Of a stretch of DNA of 64,000 nt, positions 42,174 through 52,582 are shown piece after piece. The position numbers were made by a program, and so were the translations under genes. How positions within the stretch are numbered: the stretch's first letter is position 1; the number at the start of each line of letters is the position of its first letter. Source of the DNA: Halobaculum rubrum (GTDB taxonomy: Archaea; Halobacteriota; Halobacteria; Halobacteriales; Haloferacaceae); contig NZ_CP082284.1 in assembly GCF_019880225.1 (NCBI RefSeq), positions 186,001-250,000 of the forward strand, given 5' to 3'. Below the pieces are notes generated by a model. It was given only the letters and a program-made list of their open reading frames with translations, was not told the DNA's origin and did no database searches.

Positions 42174-43601
42174 ATGAGTTGGCACGGCGTCGACGCGGTC
42201 GACGACGCGATCGACGTGACCCGCGAGTTCCTCTTTCCCTTCAGCCTCGGACGGTGGATCAGAATGGTGGTCGTGAGCCTGTTCACCGGCGGCGGCAGCG
42301 CCGGCGGACAGGTCGTCAGCAACGCCGGCAACTTCGGCGCACGCCTCGCCGGCGTCGGCGGGGTTTCCGGACCATCCAGCGGGGCGAGCGCGCTGGCGGC
42401 GCTGCTGGTCTCGGTCCCGGCGCTCTCGGTGGGCGCGCTCGCACTCGGCGGCCCCGTCCTCCAAGCCGAGGGCGTCCCACAGCCGGGCGCGCTCGGCGCG
42501 CTCGGGATCGCCGCCCTCGTCGTGGTCGCCGTGATCGCGTTGCTCGCGGTCCTCCTCTCGCCGGTGTTCGAGTTCGTTCTCGTCGACGCCATCGCCCGCG
42601 ACGACCTCCGCCTCCTGCGGGACGTCGGCAGCCACCTGACGAACGGGCTCCGGCTGCTCGGCTTCCGGATCGGGCTGTTCGCCGCGTTCGTCGTTCCTCC
42701 CGCGGCCGTGGTCGCCGCGATCGTCCTCAGCGGCACCCGCGTCGAACCGCTGGCCGGGCGACCGCTGCTCCTCGCCGGAGTGGCGATCGTTGCGATCGCG
42801 TACGTCGTCGCGTACGCGTTGATCGACCGGTTCACCGTCGAGTTCGTCGTCCCGGCGATGGTCGCCGACGGCGGCGGCGTCATCGACGGCTGGCGGCGCG
42901 TGTGGCCGTGCCTGCGGAGCCAGCCCGGACAGACGATCGTCTATCTCGTGATGCACGTGCTCGTCGGGATCGGCATCTCGATCGTCTCCGTTGTGCTGCT
43001 GCTGATCGGACTGCTCGCGGTCGGTGCCGGGGCGGCCGGGATCGGCTTCGGGGTCGGGACGATCTCCAGCGGCGCCGCGTCGACCGATCTCGGGGTCGGT
43101 CTGGGCCTGCTTGCCGGCGTCGCCGTCGGTATTCCGGTGTTCATCGTGTGTGTTCTGCTCCCGGTTCAGGTGCTCACGGTGACGTACCGGCGCTCCTACG
43201 AGATCGCCGCGCTCGGTCGGTTCGGCGAGAACCTGGATCTCATCGGGCGCTATCGTGACGGCGACGGTGACGACGACGACGGCGACGATATCGCCGCCGC
43301 GATCCGGGACGACGGGAGCGACGGCGACGACACAGCGGCTCTCGGCGCCGATGGCGACGCCGTCACCGGCGACAACGACTCGCCCGCGGACGAGGAGTTC
43401 GGCGGGTTCGTGCCCGCGTCGTCAACTGTGGCGGCCGAGGAGGACGAGGCTGTCGAGGAGGACGAGGCGGTCGAGGAGGACGAGGCGGTCGAGGAGGACG
43501 AGGCGGTCGAGGAGGACGAGGCTGTCGAGGAGGACGAGGCGGTCGAGGAGGACGATCGGGACGAACCGAACCACGGCGACGACACGGAACGCCGCGAGTA
43601 A
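42174..43601 (+). CDS. multi-pass membrane protein with acidic EEDEAV-repeat tail (DUF7544-like)
   Basis: A 475-residue protein. [20 protein letters not shown] and [14 protein letters not shown] at the start, and about six hydrophobic segments to about residue 345, match what I remember as the haloarchaeal DUF7544 membrane family. It ends in a cytoplasmic-type acidic tail (about 360-475) that contains six exact six-residue repeats EEDEAV. The tail is encoded by 18-base tandem repeats (43437-43544). Function unknown; similarity to glycerophosphoryl-diester phosphodiesterase membrane regions is conceivable but not demonstrable here. Confidence 0.8.
43437..43559. repeat. 18-bp tandem repeat (six full copies plus a partial seventh)
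   Basis: The unit GAGGAGGACGAGGC(T/G)GTC repeats head-to-tail from 43437 to 43544, followed by a partial GAGGAGGAC. Copies 1 and 5 have GCT and the others GCG, suggesting a four-unit higher-order duplication. It encodes EEDEAV repeats in frame, so copy-number changes would keep the gene open. Confidence 0.95.
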
Positions 43602-46114: not shown

Positions 46115-47764
46115 ATGTCTGATCAAGACACGAGCAGACGGCGGTTCCTCCAAGCGGCGGGTTCGGCGACTGCGGCCGTCGCGCTCGCCGGCTGTTCCGG
46201 CGGCGGCGACTCGACGCCGACCGACGAGGCGACCGAGACCAGCGGGGGCGGCATGGAGACGACGAGCGAGCCGGAGGAGACGACCGAGCGCCCCGAGCCG
46301 GACACTCGTGACGGCTTCCTCCAGCGCGCCAACCGCCACACCCACGAGCAGGCGCCGTGGGTGTTCCTCCACCGCCAGTACTCCGTGTACGGGCAGTCCT
46401 CCGACATCGAGTGGCAGCCCCGGACCGACGAGCGTGTGTCGGCGTACGCCATCGAGCCGGCGACCGACGCCGGCGACGACGTCGTGATGACGCAGTCGCA
46501 GATGGACTCCGGGCTCGACCCGCAGGACCACCGCGAGACGCCGACCGACAACATCGTCCTGCAGGCGTACGAGGGGCTGCTCGAGCGCGATCGCGAGGGC
46601 GCCATCGTCGAGACGCTGGCGACCGACTACCAGCGCCTCGACGAGACGACGGTCCAGTTCACCGTCCGTGACAACGTCTCGTTCCACTCGGGCGACTCGC
46701 TCACTCCCGAGGACGTCGCCTACTCGATCAACCGGATCGTCAAGTCGGACGTGGGCATCGAGTCGCCGCAGGTCGACCAGCTCCTGGGCGTCGAGGGTGC
46801 CGAAGTCGCCTCCTCCGACGACCGCACGGTGAACGTGAACCTCTCGGGGCTCAACCCGATCGTGTTCGCCTCGTTCGCGACCTACTGCGACGTGATGAAC
46901 AAGTCGTGGGTCGAGAGCAACGACCAGGCGTACATCAACCAGAACATGGAGGGGACCGGTCCGTTCGTGCTCTCCAACTACGAGCAGGGCGTCGAGGTCG
47001 CCTTCCAGCGGAACAACGACTACTGGGACGAGCCGGCGGCCATCTCGACGTTCACGATCAACTCCGCGTCCGAGTCCTCGACGCGCGTGAACCGGCTCCT
47101 CAGCGGCGAGACCGACATCGCGGTCAACGTTCCACCCCAGGAGGTCTCCCGGGTCGAGAACAGCGAGGACGCGTCGATCTCGGCGGTGCCGTCGACGCGC
47201 GTCATCTTCAACGCGATGCGCTACGACGTGGAGCCGTTCGACTCGCCGACGTTCCGGCAGGCGGTCAACTACGCGGTCGACCTCGACTCCATCATCGAGA
47301 ACGTCCTGCAGACGTTCGGCTCGGCGACCGGCCAGCCGACCCTCGAGGGCTTCTTCGGTCACAACGAGGACCTCGACCCGTACCCGCAGGACCTCGACCG
47401 CGCCGAGCAGCTCGTCGAGGAGTCCGGCTACGCCGGCGCCGAGATCGAGCTCGTGACGCCGATCGGTCGGTACCTCAAGGACGTCGAGATCGCCCAGGCG
47501 GTCGCCTCGCAGGTCGACGAGATCCCGAACGTCTCGGCGACCGCGCGACAGGTCGAGTTCTCGACGCTCGTCAGTCAGGTGACGACGGGCAACATCGAGG
47601 ACAAGCCCCCGTGGTACCTGCTCGGGTGGGGGAACGCGACGTTCGACGCGATCCAGACGATCCAGCCGCTCCTCGCGAGCGACGGGGCGCTGACCTCGTA
47701 CAAGAACGACGAGCTCGATCGGCTGCTCGACGAGGCGCAGAGCCTCCCGAGCGAGAGCAACTAG
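46115..47764 (+). CDS. dipeptide/oligopeptide ABC transporter substrate-binding lipoprotein, apparently circularly permuted
   Basis: A 549-residue family-5 solute-binding protein. The Tat-type leader SRRRFLQAAGSATAAVALAG ends at lipobox Cys27, then a Thr/Glu linker. Residues about 64-117 (RDGFLQRANRHTHEQAPWVF, then LHRQYSVYGQSSDIEWQPR and TDERVSAY) are what normally forms the extreme C-terminus of these proteins. Only afterwards, from about 121 (DDVVMTQSQMDSGLDPQDHR), does the usual mature N-terminus begin. The protein stops at NDELDRLLDEAQSLPSESN, exactly where the displaced segment should follow. Between lie regular features such as VQFTVRDNVSFHSGDSLTPE. It is the first gene of a five-gene importer. 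Confidence 0.93.
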   Translation: MSDQDTSRRRFLQAAGSATAAVALAGCSGGGDSTPTDEATETSGGGMETTSEPEETTERPEPDTRDGFLQRANRHTHEQAPWVFLHRQYSVYGQSSDIEWQPRTDERVSAYAIEPATDAGDDVVMTQSQMDSGLDPQDHRETPTDNIVLQAYEGLLERDREGAIVETLATDYQRLDETTVQFTVRDNVSFHSGDSLTPEDVAYSINRIVKSDVGIESPQVDQLLGVEGAEVASSDDRTVNVNLSGLNPIVFASFATYCDVMNKSWVESNDQAYINQNMEGTGPFVLSNYEQGVEVAFQRNNDYWDEPAAISTFTINSASESSTRVNRLLSGETDIAVNVPPQEVSRVENSEDASISAVPSTRVIFNAMRYDVEPFDSPTFRQAVNYAVDLDSIIENVLQTFGSATGQPTLEGFFGHNEDLDPYPQDLDRAEQLVEESGYAGAEIELVTPIGRYLKDVEIAQAVASQVDEIPNVSATARQVEFSTLVSQVTTGNIEDKPPWYLLGWGNATFDAIQTIQPLLASDGALTSYKNDELDRLLDEAQSLPSESN

Positions 47765-47770
47765 GCCGTC

Positions 47771-48763
47771 ATGGGCTACGGTCGATTTCTTCTCAAGCGC
47801 GGCGTGCAGGGAGTGGGTGTCGTCTGGGGAGTCGTGACTGTCGTCTTCGTCCTCCGATTCATCACGCCGGGGTCGCCGATCGACACGGTGGCGCCGCTGG
47901 ACGCCAGTCAGGAGACGCGCCAGCGGATCGCCGAGGAGCTGGGACTGAACCAGCCGCTGTACGTCCAGTATCTGGATTACCTCTGGGAACTCCTCCAGGG
48001 AAACATGGGGTACTCGTACATCTCGAGCATCCCGGCATCGGTGCAGGTGTTCCAGAAGCTCCCGGCGACCCTGGAGCTCGCGGTCGCCGCGAGCGTCGTG
48101 GCGGTCGTCATCTCGATTCCGTTGGGGGTCATCTCGGCGACGCGGCGCCACGAGCCGGCCGACTACGCCGCCACGACGTTCTCGCTGCTCGGCATCTCGA
48201 CGCCGAACTTCTGGCTGGGGATCATGCTCGTGCTCGTGTTCGCGGTGGAGCTCAACGTCTTCCCGACCAGCGGTCGGGCGTACGGCTTCATGGAGTCGCT
48301 CGCGGCGATCACCGGCCCGGAGCCGTTCTTCACGGTCGTGACGGCGTGGCTCGCCTCGCTGTTCCTCCCGGCGATCACGCTGGGGACGTACTTCACGGCG
48401 CTCATCACTCGACTGGTCCGCTCCGGGATGCTCGACGAGCTGTCGGAGGGGTACGTCCGCGCGACGCGAGCGAAGGGGCTTCCCGAGTCCCTCGTCCGAT
48501 ACAAGCACGTCCTCCGCAACACGCTCGTTCCGGTGGTGACCGTCCTCGGGCTCCAGCTCGGGACGCTCATCGGCGGAGCGGTGATCACGGAGGCCGTCTT
48601 CGCGTGGCCCGGACTGGGCTCGGAGATCATCCGCGCGATCAACGCGCGCGACTGGCCGATCCTGCAGGGGAGCCTCATCGTTATCGGGACCGGGTTCGTC
48701 CTCTTGAACATCGTCGTCGACGCGCTGTACGCGTATCTCGACCCGCGGGTGATCGCTGAATGA
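47771..48763 (+). CDS. dppB: dipeptide/oligopeptide ABC transporter permease (DppB type)
   Basis: A 330-residue permease with six helices, starting GRFLLKRGVQGVGVVWGVVT and including a long external loop after helix 1 (typical of DppB/OppB). The ATPase-contact EAA loop is EGYVRATRAKGLPESLVRYK followed by HVLRNTLVPVVT. It pairs with the next gene; its stop overlaps that gene's ATG by four bases (ATGA at 48760-48763). The preceding binding-protein gene ends only six bases before it. Confidence 0.94.
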   Translation: MGYGRFLLKRGVQGVGVVWGVVTVVFVLRFITPGSPIDTVAPLDASQETRQRIAEELGLNQPLYVQYLDYLWELLQGNMGYSYISSIPASVQVFQKLPATLELAVAASVVAVVISIPLGVISATRRHEPADYAATTFSLLGISTPNFWLGIMLVLVFAVELNVFPTSGRAYGFMESLAAITGPEPFFTVVTAWLASLFLPAITLGTYFTALITRLVRSGMLDELSEGYVRATRAKGLPESLVRYKHVLRNTLVPVVTVLGLQLGTLIGGAVITEAVFAWPGLGSEIIRAINARDWPILQGSLIVIGTGFVLLNIVVDALYAYLDPRVIAE

Positions 48764-49833
48764 AGATCGGACCGATATCGATCTCCCCACGTACCATCCG
48801 GAACCTCCGCAAGGAGTTCCGGTCGTCCGGACTCGCGCGGATCGGCGTGGTGCTCGTGGTCGTGATCGTACTCGCGGCGGCGTTCGCCCCCATGATCGCC
48901 CCGCACAACCCCCGAACCCAGGATCTGGACCGGGCGCAGCTCCCGCCGCTTGGGTTCACCGATACCGAACAACAGACCCGGACCGAGATGGTGAACGGGA
49001 GTGTCCAGACCGTGACTGAGAACGTCACGGTGAACGCGACCGCTCAGCACCCATTGGGGACCAACTCGCTGGGACAGGACATCCTTTCGCGGGCGATATA
49101 CGGCGCCCGGACGTCGCTGCTCGTCGGGTTCTTCGGCACGGTGCTCGCTGCGCTGTTGGGCGTCACCGTCGGGCTGACCGCGGGGTACTACCGCGGCCGA
49201 ATCGACGACGCGCTGATGCGCACCGCCGACGTGTCGCTGGCGTTCCCGTCGCTCGTGCTGGCGATCGCGTTGATCGGGCTGTTCAGCCGCTTCCAAGCCG
49301 ACGTGGCGGTCGCGATCACCGACCCGCTCGTGACCACCGGCGTGGCCGGCGCGTTCCGCGACGCGGTCGGGCTACCGACACCGATGCCGGAGGCGTTCGT
49401 GTTGCCGACGGTCGTCATCCTGGTCGTCGGGTTCGTCAACTGGGTGTGGTTCGCCCGCATCGCGCGCGGCGAGGCGCTCTCGGTCCGCGAGGAGGAGTAC
49501 GTGAAAGCCGCGCGGGCGCTCGGCGCCAGCGACGTGCGGATCGTGTTCCGGCACGTCCTTCCGAACTCGATCACGCCGATCCTCGTGTTGGCGACCATCC
49601 AGGTCGCCGCGATCATCCTGTTGGAGTCGGCACTGTCGTTCCTCGGTTTCTCGGGGACGACGCTCTCGTGGGGTTTCGACATTGCGCAAGGACGCGACTA
49701 CCTCTCGTCGTCGTGGTGGATCGCAACCGTGCCCGGGATCGCGATCGTGCTCTCGGTCATCGGCATCAACCTCGTGGGTGACTGGCTCCGCGACGCGCTC
49801 GATCCGGGTATCGAGGGCGAGGGGGGGATGTAG
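48760..49833 (+). CDS. dppC: dipeptide/oligopeptide ABC transporter permease (DppC type)
   Basis: A 357-residue permease. The N-terminal cytoplasmic part precedes helix 1 (IGVVLVVVIVLAAAFAPMIA), then an external loop with HPLGTNSLGQDILSRAIYG, the DppC/OppC hallmark, and the EAA loop EEYVKAARALGASDVRIVFR with HVLPNSITPI. An extra external loop (VNGSVQTVTENVTVNATAQ) carries sequons, suggesting glycosylation. It overlaps dppB by ATGA, and its stop abuts the next ATG directly. Confidence 0.94.
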   Translation: MKIGPISISPRTIRNLRKEFRSSGLARIGVVLVVVIVLAAAFAPMIAPHNPRTQDLDRAQLPPLGFTDTEQQTRTEMVNGSVQTVTENVTVNATAQHPLGTNSLGQDILSRAIYGARTSLLVGFFGTVLAALLGVTVGLTAGYYRGRIDDALMRTADVSLAFPSLVLAIALIGLFSRFQADVAVAITDPLVTTGVAGAFRDAVGLPTPMPEAFVLPTVVILVVGFVNWVWFARIARGEALSVREEEYVKAARALGASDVRIVFRHVLPNSITPILVLATIQVAAIILLESALSFLGFSGTTLSWGFDIAQGRDYLSSSWWIATVPGIAIVLSVIGINLVGDWLRDALDPGIEGEGGM

Positions 49834-51093
49834 ATGAGCGAGACAGCCTCCACGGAGTCCACCGGCGCCCCCGACGAGCACGGTGCCCCGGAGGGCCACC
49901 CGGACGACGTGCTCCGGGTTCGGAACCTCTCTACGCGCTTCTTCACCGAAGAGGGGCAGATCAACGCCGTCGAGTCGGTCGACTTCACCGTTCGTGACGG
50001 CGAGGTGTACGGTATCGTCGGCGAGTCCGGCTCCGGGAAGTCGGTGGCGGCGCTGTCGCTCATCGACCTCGTCGACTCGCCGGGGCGGATCACCTCCGGC
50101 GAGGTGTGGTACCGCGACGCCGACCTCGCGGACGAGTTCCGGGACGAGCTGCCCGAGGCCGTGGACGGCGACCTCGTCGACACGCGTCGGCTACCCGAGG
50201 GCGTCCGCCGCGCGCTGCGCGGGCCGGCGTTCTCGATGGTGTTCCAGGACCCGATGTCCTCGCTGAACCCCTCGATCACCGTCGGCGAACAGATCGCCGA
50301 GGCCGTGGAGGTGCAGCGACGCGCCCGCGCGAACCCGCGAAGCACGCGCTCGCGGACACAGGGGTACGGGATGGGACGACTCATCGCCGACACGCTGCTG
50401 CCGAACCGCGGATACACCTCCGAGTCGAGCATGAACCGGGCGATCGAGCTGCTCGAACAGGTCGGCATCCCCGACCCCGCCGATCGCGCCCACGAGTACC
50501 CCCACCAGTTCTCCGGCGGGATGCTCCAGCGCGCGATGATCGCGCAGGCGCTTGCCGGGGAACCGGACGTGCTGATCGCCGACGAGCCGACGACCGCCCT
50601 CGACGTGACGATCCAAGCGCAGATCCTCAACCTCCTGCGCGACCTGCAGGAGGAGCAGGACACCTCCGTCGTGATGATCACCCACGATCTGGGCGTCATC
50701 GCCCGGATGTGCAACCGCGTGGGCGTCATGTACGCGGGGCAGATCGTCGAGCGGGGAACGCTCGCGGACGTGTTCGACTCGCCCGTCCATCCGTACACCG
50801 AGGGACTCATCGGCTCGATCCCGGACCTCGACGATCCGGACCCTCGGCTCCAGCCGATCGGGGGGAACGTCCCCTCGCTGTTGGACGAGGAGATGGGCGG
50901 CCGGTGTTTCTTCGCCGACCGCTGTCCGAAGGCGATGGCCGATTGCCTTCAACCGATCCCCGAGTACGACGCGGAACCCGGAACCGACGACCACGCCGTT
51001 CGCTGCGTGCTCGCACAACGGGAGTTCAGCGAGGCGGACGCGCTCCCGCCGGATCACTTCGACCGCAACGAGGAGGTGCGCGGCGATGAGTGA
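49834..51093 (+). CDS. dppD: dipeptide/oligopeptide ABC transporter ATP-binding protein (DppD type)
   Basis: A 419-residue ABC ATPase. Walker A is GESGSGKS (63-70), the Q-loop VFQDPMSSLNPS, the signature FSGGMLQRAM, Walker B VLIADEPTTALD and the switch His in VMITHDLGV. After the ABC domain a cysteine-bearing C-terminal region (GGRCFFADRCPKAMADCLQP) is characteristic of peptide importers and may bind an iron-sulfur cluster or metal. It is longer than the usual 330 residues because of two insertions (about 95-125 and 160-200). The ATG directly follows the dppC stop. Confidence 0.94.
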   Translation: MSETASTESTGAPDEHGAPEGHPDDVLRVRNLSTRFFTEEGQINAVESVDFTVRDGEVYGIVGESGSGKSVAALSLIDLVDSPGRITSGEVWYRDADLADEFRDELPEAVDGDLVDTRRLPEGVRRALRGPAFSMVFQDPMSSLNPSITVGEQIAEAVEVQRRARANPRSTRSRTQGYGMGRLIADTLLPNRGYTSESSMNRAIELLEQVGIPDPADRAHEYPHQFSGGMLQRAMIAQALAGEPDVLIADEPTTALDVTIQAQILNLLRDLQEEQDTSVVMITHDLGVIARMCNRVGVMYAGQIVERGTLADVFDSPVHPYTEGLIGSIPDLDDPDPRLQPIGGNVPSLLDEEMGGRCFFADRCPKAMADCLQPIPEYDAEPGTDDHAVRCVLAQREFSEADALPPDHFDRNEEVRGDE

Positions 51094-52582
51094 GTCCCCG
51101 CCCGGAGACCCGCTGCTCGAGGTCCACGGCCTGCGGAAGTACTACTACGAGAACGACTCGCTGTTCGATCGACTGCTCGGCCGGGACCCGTCCAGCGTGA
51201 AGGCCGTCGACGGCGTCGATCTGGAGGTGTACCCCGGGGAGACGCTCGGCGTCGTCGGCGAGTCCGGCTGCGGGAAGTCGACGACGGGCGAGACGCTCCT
51301 CAGACTGCGCGAGGCCACCGACGGCACCGTCCGCTTCGACGGCGAGGACGTCATGGAGATGGCCGGGGACGAACTGACGCGCTTCCGCAAGCGCGCGGGT
51401 ATCGTCTTCCAGGACCCGTTCTCCAGCCTCGACCCGCGGATGACCGTCGGCGACATCGTGGGCGAGGGGTTGAAGATCCACGACATGCCCGAGGAGTCGC
51501 CGGACGACGGCCGCTCAAAGCGGGAATGGCGCCGCGACCGCGCGAAGGAACTGCTCGAACGCGTCGGCCTCTCGGCCGACCAGATCGATCGGTACCCACA
51601 CGAGTTCTCCGGCGGGCAGCGCCAGCGCGTCGGCATCGCGCGCGCGCTCGCTCTCGACCCGGAGTTCATCGTGCTCGACGAGCCGGTCTCCGCGCTCGAC
51701 GTGAGCGTGCAAGCGCAGATCCTGAACCTCCTGGAGGACCTCCAGGAGGACTTCGGGCTGACGTACCTGTTCATCGCCCACGACCTCTCGGTCGTGCGGC
51801 ACATCTGCGACCGCGTCGCCGTGATGTACCTCGGCGAGGTGGTCGAGACCGGCCCGACCGACGACATCTTCGAGTCGCCGAAACACCCCTACACGAAGGC
51901 GCTGTTGGAGTCGGTTCCGCGCGCGTCCGTCGAGGAACAGGGGCGCCGCGTCGACGCGCTCCCGGGGGACGTTCCCTCGCCGCGGAACCCGCCGTCGGGC
52001 TGTCACTTCCGGACGCGCTGTCCGAAGGTGATCCAGCCGGCGACCGTCGACGTCCCGCAAGAGCAGTATCGCGGGATCATGAACCTCCGCGACCGCCTCG
52101 AACGCCAGGGGTTCACCGCCGACTCCGTCTGGGAGACGCTCGAAAGCGAGCACGACGGCGAGGACTTCGAGCGGAACACCGTCGTGTTCAAGGAAGCGAT
52201 GCGCGAGGAGTTCGACCTCGCGGGACTGTCGGGCGCGACCATGGACACCGTCGAGGACGCCCTCGAGATCCTCGCGAACGGCCGCGAGACGGAAGCCGCG
52301 GACCGGCTTCGGGACGCGTTCGCCTCGCCGTGTGAGGAGGAAGAGCCCATCCTGACCGGGGGCGAGCACGCGGCAGCGTGCCACCTCTTCGCCGACGAGG
52401 AGTACGACCGCGACCTCGACCCCACAGACATCGGGAGTGCGATGGGCGGGATGCCGGCGCCCGATCAGTCGCCGACAGCCACCGGCGACGTGGACGACGA
52501 GCCCGATCTCGACAGCGTCGACACCGCCACCGAGTCGGACGCCGACGACACCGCCGAGCCGGATACCGACGACAGCCAGTAG
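51086..52582 (+). CDS. dppF: dipeptide/oligopeptide ABC transporter ATP-binding protein (DppF type) with long insertion
   Basis: A 498-residue ABC ATPase overlapping dppD by eight bases. Walker A is GESGCGKST (58-66), the signature FSGGQRQRVG, Walker B FIVLDEPVSALD and the switch His in FIAHDLSVV. The peptide-importer C-region begins GCHFRTRCPK (about 303-313) but its second half, SPCEEEEPILTGGEHAAACH, appears about 100 residues later. The insertion between is an acidic helical stretch (about 313-411). After about 445 follows a very acidic tail. Usual DppF length is about 330. Confidence 0.93.
   Translation: MSESPPGDPLLEVHGLRKYYYENDSLFDRLLGRDPSSVKAVDGVDLEVYPGETLGVVGESGCGKSTTGETLLRLREATDGTVRFDGEDVMEMAGDELTRFRKRAGIVFQDPFSSLDPRMTVGDIVGEGLKIHDMPEESPDDGRSKREWRRDRAKELLERVGLSADQIDRYPHEFSGGQRQRVGIARALALDPEFIVLDEPVSALDVSVQAQILNLLEDLQEDFGLTYLFIAHDLSVVRHICDRVAVMYLGEVVETGPTDDIFESPKHPYTKALLESVPRASVEEQGRRVDALPGDVPSPRNPPSGCHFRTRCPKVIQPATVDVPQEQYRGIMNLRDRLERQGFTADSVWETLESEHDGEDFERNTVVFKEAMREEFDLAGLSGATMDTVEDALEILANGRETEAADRLRDAFASPCEEEEPILTGGEHAAACHLFADEEYDRDLDPTDIGSAMGGMPAPDQSPTATGDVDDEPDLDSVDTATESDADDTAEPDTDDSQ

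Follow-up and report, generated by a model that had tools for sequence, protein, structure and literature searches.

Evidence for natural circular permutation of a family-5 solute-binding lipoprotein in haloarchaea

The protein P0001 is very likely the lipoprotein that captures substrate for a complete ABC importer of the Dpp/Opp type, with a mature domain that has been naturally circularly permuted; its part in binding and transport is inferred. Our computations establish the altered order of its segments, the conservation of that order, the purifying selection acting on it, the predicted fold, the presence of a single copy of the moved segment and the non-monophyly of the permuted proteins.

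Gene layout and the importer operon

The gene encoding P0001 (549 amino acids, stop codon TAG) occupies positions 46115..47764 on the plus strand of the window, by which we mean the whole stretch of 64,000 nucleotides of Halobaculum rubrum DNA that was analyzed, and was assigned from its open reading frame, Pfam, its relatives and a segment HMM. The protein begins with a twin-arginine signal carrying the lipobox LAGC (residues 1-27, 46115..46195), recognized in the sequence and not permuted, and continues with a low-complexity tether linker (residues 28-57, 46196..46285) that is predicted to be disordered (pLDDT <50 for residues 1-58). Next comes the displaced segment (residues 58-117, 46286..46465), which comprises the canonical C-terminal helix (65-79), strand (82-95) and W..R.DE end and rests on HMMs, AlphaFold2 and the alignment to the conventional relative L016. 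The binding-protein core (residues 118-549, 46466..47761), supported by Pfam, HMM and structural alignment, runs from the canonical first strand to the loop where the C-terminal segment would start. The signal peptide and lipobox linker are still N-terminal, and the permutation is limited to the mature domain. A twin-arginine motif and lipobox were present in 48/48 permuted relatives, and the tether between the lipid cysteine and the first folded element has a median length of 34 residues in permuted and 35 in conventional proteins.

Beginning 6 bases past the stop codon, and in one gene run on the plus strand, there are four further Dpp/Opp-type genes, two for permeases and two for ATPases: a DppB/OppB-type permease (47771..48763; PF00528, PF19300), a DppC/OppC-type permease (48760..49833; PF00528, PF12911), a DppD/OppD-type ATPase (49834..51093; PF00005, PF08352) and a DppF/OppF-type ATPase (51086..52582; PF00005, PF08352). 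The operon is intact, as the original prediction had stated for the rest of the importer. Its label of "peptide-binding" has not been shown. The substrate of P0001 is undetermined, there are no binding or transport data, and no NCBIfam equivalog came near its cut-off (the best was NikA-like, with 137.7 of 600). A permease lies downstream of the binding-protein gene in permuted and conventional loci alike. Elsewhere in the window, positions 42174-43601 encode a predicted membrane protein of 475 residues with about seven tandem EEDEAV repeats at its C-terminus.

Order of the segments and predicted fold

A C-terminal helix-strand segment is usual in family 5, yet it lies outside both the Pfam model and the family definition. 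PF00496 (SBP_bac_5) matches only residues 164-524 of P0001 (222.8 bits, against a cut-off of 32.4), and the match stops at residue 524 because the model omits this segment. P0001 does not follow the conventional chain order with the segment at the C-end, since its segment is found at residues 58-117. A phmmer search against solved structures gave a main match of residues 164-456 to 53-347 of 4zec (a 490-residue chain) and aligned residues 69-106 to 442-479, an out-of-order hint that is not significant alone. The relatives fall into two kinds: those that match P0001 over the full length, and those that match from residue ~115 only, carry the segment at the C-end and have a core ~47-66% identical to that of P0001.

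We built a segment HMM exclusively on the C-terminal 62 residues of 30 conventional relatives; it gave a single match in P0001, at residues 58-115 (E 1.4e-28, 91 bits), and none at its C-end. The same model matches each permuted protein near the N-end and each conventional protein at the C-end. No second copy of the segment was found with this model or by inspecting the flanks in any of the permuted ORFs and loci, and no relic of it remains near the C-end of the permuted genes in any locus examined. Duplication of the segment, the alternative in which homologs would hold a second copy at the C-terminus, was ruled out on these grounds, as no protein has both copies.

A full-length HMM was derived from 43 conventional relatives. 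Native P0001 matches this model as three out-of-order pieces (the signal at model positions 6-60, the segment at 485-544 and the core at 65-489), versus one match of 830 bits for P0001 reordered as signal, core and segment. The core followed by the segment scored 778 bits and the core alone 700; when the segment was shuffled the score was 699-700 bits (three shuffles), with nothing gained over the core alone. The contrast between three pieces and a single match is far beyond chance. After reordering, L016 is 62% identical to P0001, and the segment of P0001 is 47% identical to the C-terminus of L016.

The original prediction, made from the sequence alone, had proposed a natural circular permutation of the family-5 fold, and this is supported by the HMMs, the predicted structure and the relatives. 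Its open reading frame, lipobox and segment position held, with the segment placed here at residues 58-117. Its identification of the segment as a displaced C-terminus held with the HMM of conventional C-termini, and its claim that joining the end of the protein to the displaced part restores the normal order held with the single match of the reordered chain. The structure prediction it had proposed as a check was favorable, as was the structural alignment, and both are described below.

The AlphaFold2 model of P0001, obtained with the permuted alignment, has a mean pLDDT of 84.8 and a pTM of 0.81, with pLDDT of 86-94 in the blocks spanning residues 61-120, where a helix (65-79) and a strand of 14 residues (82-95) are predicted. 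The segment reproduces the helix, strand and end elements of the conventional C-terminus; in the model of L016 these are a helix at 487-504 and a strand at 507-520, and the secondary structures of the two models agree at 93% of 58 segment positions and at 97% of 481 positions overall. The P0001 model has the DppA/OppA fold, with Z of 28-33 to DppA, YliB, GbpA and others over ~400-425 aligned residues. In sequential structural alignments to 1dpp (DppA, 507 residues), residues 121-548 of the permuted model align to 1-453 (Z 31.6), versus residues 63-541 to 1-507 for the conventional model (Z 39.7). The permuted model thus stops 54 residues short of the end of DppA, a stretch exactly as long as what is folded of the moved segment (residues 64-117), and the same C-terminal shortfall was seen versus 1uqw, 8c6u and others. 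That the fold is the same despite the altered chain order is a model prediction, without an experimental structure or a non-sequential superposition; that the moved segment occupies the canonical C-terminal place is inferred from the secondary structure, the confidence of the model and the missing stretch.

Conservation, selection and number of origins

We used a junction model, A1, that joins the segment and the start of the core. Contiguous matches to A1 (160-224 bits) were found in 39 of the 392 sampled order genomes, representing 14 of 95 genera and six families (f1, f4, f5, f7, f10 and f15). The model is spanned unbroken from 2 to 128 in permuted genomes, versus two reversed-order matches ~1.2 kb apart in conventional genomes. 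Carriers of the permuted order include Halobaculum saliterrae, H. gomorrense and H. litoreum and, by the segment HMM, Halosimplex aquaticum and H. pelagicum. The search for the same order in haloarchaeal genomes that the original prediction had called for has revealed a conserved lineage. No plasmid-borne permuted copy was found; the four plasmid matches all begin at query residue >=121, with 34-38% identity. The possibility that the order in the window stems from faulty sequencing or assembly, of which the original prediction had named a local assembly error as something that would refute it, is all but excluded: we found no support for it, and an assembly error is ruled out by dozens of genomes from six families that were assembled separately, complete chromosomes among them, and share the order.

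Pairwise dN/dS values, calculated with a simple counting method and to be taken as rough estimates, were 0.16-0.29 for the segment, 0.19-0.21 for the core and 0.28-0.50 for the signal and linker in three permuted clades. P0001 is under purifying selection, and because the dN/dS of the segment is close to that of the core, the segment is maintained like the core. One could also regard P0001 as a degenerate protein, in which the C-terminus of the core is gone and the piece at the N-terminus is an appendage that either has no function or acts on its own. The only support for this reading is that the function of P0001 is untested. We consider it very unlikely, as the invariant positions of the segment are conserved across 24 permuted proteins, its dN/dS resembles that of the core, it folds confidently in AlphaFold2 and the operon is intact.

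Two observations were made on individual genomes. In the G003 ortholog (L002:502-3156, minus strand), CAG replaces the stop codon of the permuted protein and the frame continues into the permease for a total of 885 amino acids, which could be a natural fusion of binding protein and permease or a sequencing error. Genome G015 holds both a permuted (L068) and a conventional (L014) member of the subfamily, respectively 64% and 51% identical to P0001.

The permuted proteins are not monophyletic. A core tree, from which the moved segment was left out, rejects a single permuted clade (AU p = 7e-7) and places the second permuted set, L054-L057, with the conventional L087/L091 (support 100/99). The main 23 permuted rows as one clade were not rejected by this tree (p 0.38). 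In the segment-only tree, the L054-L057 segments join the C-ends of L087/L091 (96/94), and one permuted clade is not firmly rejected by that tree alone (p 0.056). The permease tree also rejects one permuted clade (p 8e-4), puts L054-L057 away from L087/L091 and rejects monophyly even of the main permuted group (p 0.007). Concatenation of core and permease returned L054-L056 with L087/L091 (100/99) and gave p 0.28 for the main group as one clade. Neither the core tree nor the concatenation shares the permease tree's rejection of the main group. Separately, the permeases of the conventional L019, L024 and L028 nest inside permuted systems (99/96) and their binding-protein cores do not, a pattern that could stem from an additional origin, a reversal or an exchange of the binding protein for another.

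The same trees bear on the source of the segment. It has been suggested that the permuted part of TpMglB-2 was acquired from another gene (PMC4990184), and by the same reasoning the segment could have been cut-and-pasted or copied from a paralogous binding protein rather than from the protein's own C-terminus. This is very unlikely, given that the second clade's segments group with the C-termini of their own core's relatives and that the P0001 segment has the identity to the L016 C-terminus given above. Because the second clade's segment matches its own core, an intragenic event is favored.

Our results suggest, beyond anything in the original prediction, that the identical cut probably arose independently at least two times rather than once with reversals, although this is an inference. 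Two gains are preferred because they need fewer steps and because conventional proteins inside and outside the clade have the same uncut loop (AQ..-D..RE.LL..AN). The alternative, a single ancient permutation followed by at least two reversals to the conventional order, appears unlikely, as each reversal would need to rebuild that common loop. In its favor, one gain with ~2 reversals is just one step above two gains, the permease tree puts the conventional L019/L024/L028 within permuted systems, and in both permuted groups the helix is preceded by an 'LP[ED]' linker and a proline lies close to the new C-end. This common LP motif may hint at a common origin, or it may be convergence at a helix cap.

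Proposed mechanism and comparison with known systems

In the arrangement we propose, the final ~55-60 residues of the canonical chain come ahead of its first strand, the old termini would be bridged by about ten residues and the new chain ends would be located in the loop that separates the last two canonical helices. P0001 would most likely fold as a normal two-lobed binding protein and pass its substrate to the permease, both binding and transport being inferred, with the lipid tether entering where the canonical C-terminal helix begins and not at the first strand. Each permutation is inferred to have been intragenic: the segment, or the gene, would have been duplicated and fused through the old termini, and the redundant C-terminal copy would then have been lost via a stop codon. 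Duplication, fusion and loss is the standard model of circular permutation (PMC3320104). The intermediates it predicts, with a segment at both ends, were not found among the loci examined, and the search for matching DNA repeats at the junctions of the window gene returned only one 10-base match, which is uninformative. A less likely possibility is that the recurrence at the same loop is adaptive, the anchor entry being moved, the C-end freed beside the co-translated permease and tethered docking altered.

Natural permuted binding proteins are already known, and the open-licence literature that we searched contained no account of a permuted family-5 protein, a permuted archaeal binding protein or recurrence; within it, these three aspects are apparently new. 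The DppA/OppA proteins (1dpp, 1uqw, 5u4o) share the fold of P0001, and the conventional haloarchaeal family-5 proteins L016, L060 and L065 share the fold, Tat lipobox, operon and downstream permease; in all of them, unlike in P0001, the C-terminal segment stands at the end of the chain. Permuted DNA methyltransferases and swaposins (PMC3320104) are natural within-family permutations and the classic case for permutation by duplication. Their folds differ from that of P0001, and the methyltransferases have documented duplicated intermediates (PMC3320104), whereas none was found for the P0001 family.

In kind, the known system closest to P0001 is Tp0684/TpMglB-2 from Treponema pallidum ('Type Ic / Cluster Bc'), a glucose-binding lipoprotein of cluster B whose fold is circularly permuted (PMC4990184). 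Both are tethered ABC solute-binding lipoproteins with a natural, lineage-conserved circular permutation. TpMglB-2, for which ligand binding has been demonstrated, differs in being bacterial and of cluster B, with a permuted part that matches poorly in sequence (13%). P0001 does not belong to cluster Bc (a Type I / cluster B fold with permuted N-lobe strands), being family 5 by both sequence and structure; it is archaeal, ~60% identical overall to its unpermuted relatives, cut at a different site and apparently recurrent.

The Pfam model, by ending before the segment, hides such permutations from annotation. In many known cases of natural circular permutation, relatives with and without the permuted order have diverged so far that cause and effect are hard to separate. 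The permuted and conventional pairs described here are ~60% identical overall, with orthologous operons, equal tether length and apparent recurrence at one loop, and amount to a natural experiment in rewiring proteins that may still work, their function being inferred. Because the relatives are close and the event apparently recurrent, two open questions become testable: how permutation passes through functional intermediates, and whether it makes a difference to a tethered binding protein that its point of attachment has shifted, tethering having been raised by the authors of the TpMglB-2 work as a possible driver of permutation (PMC4990184).
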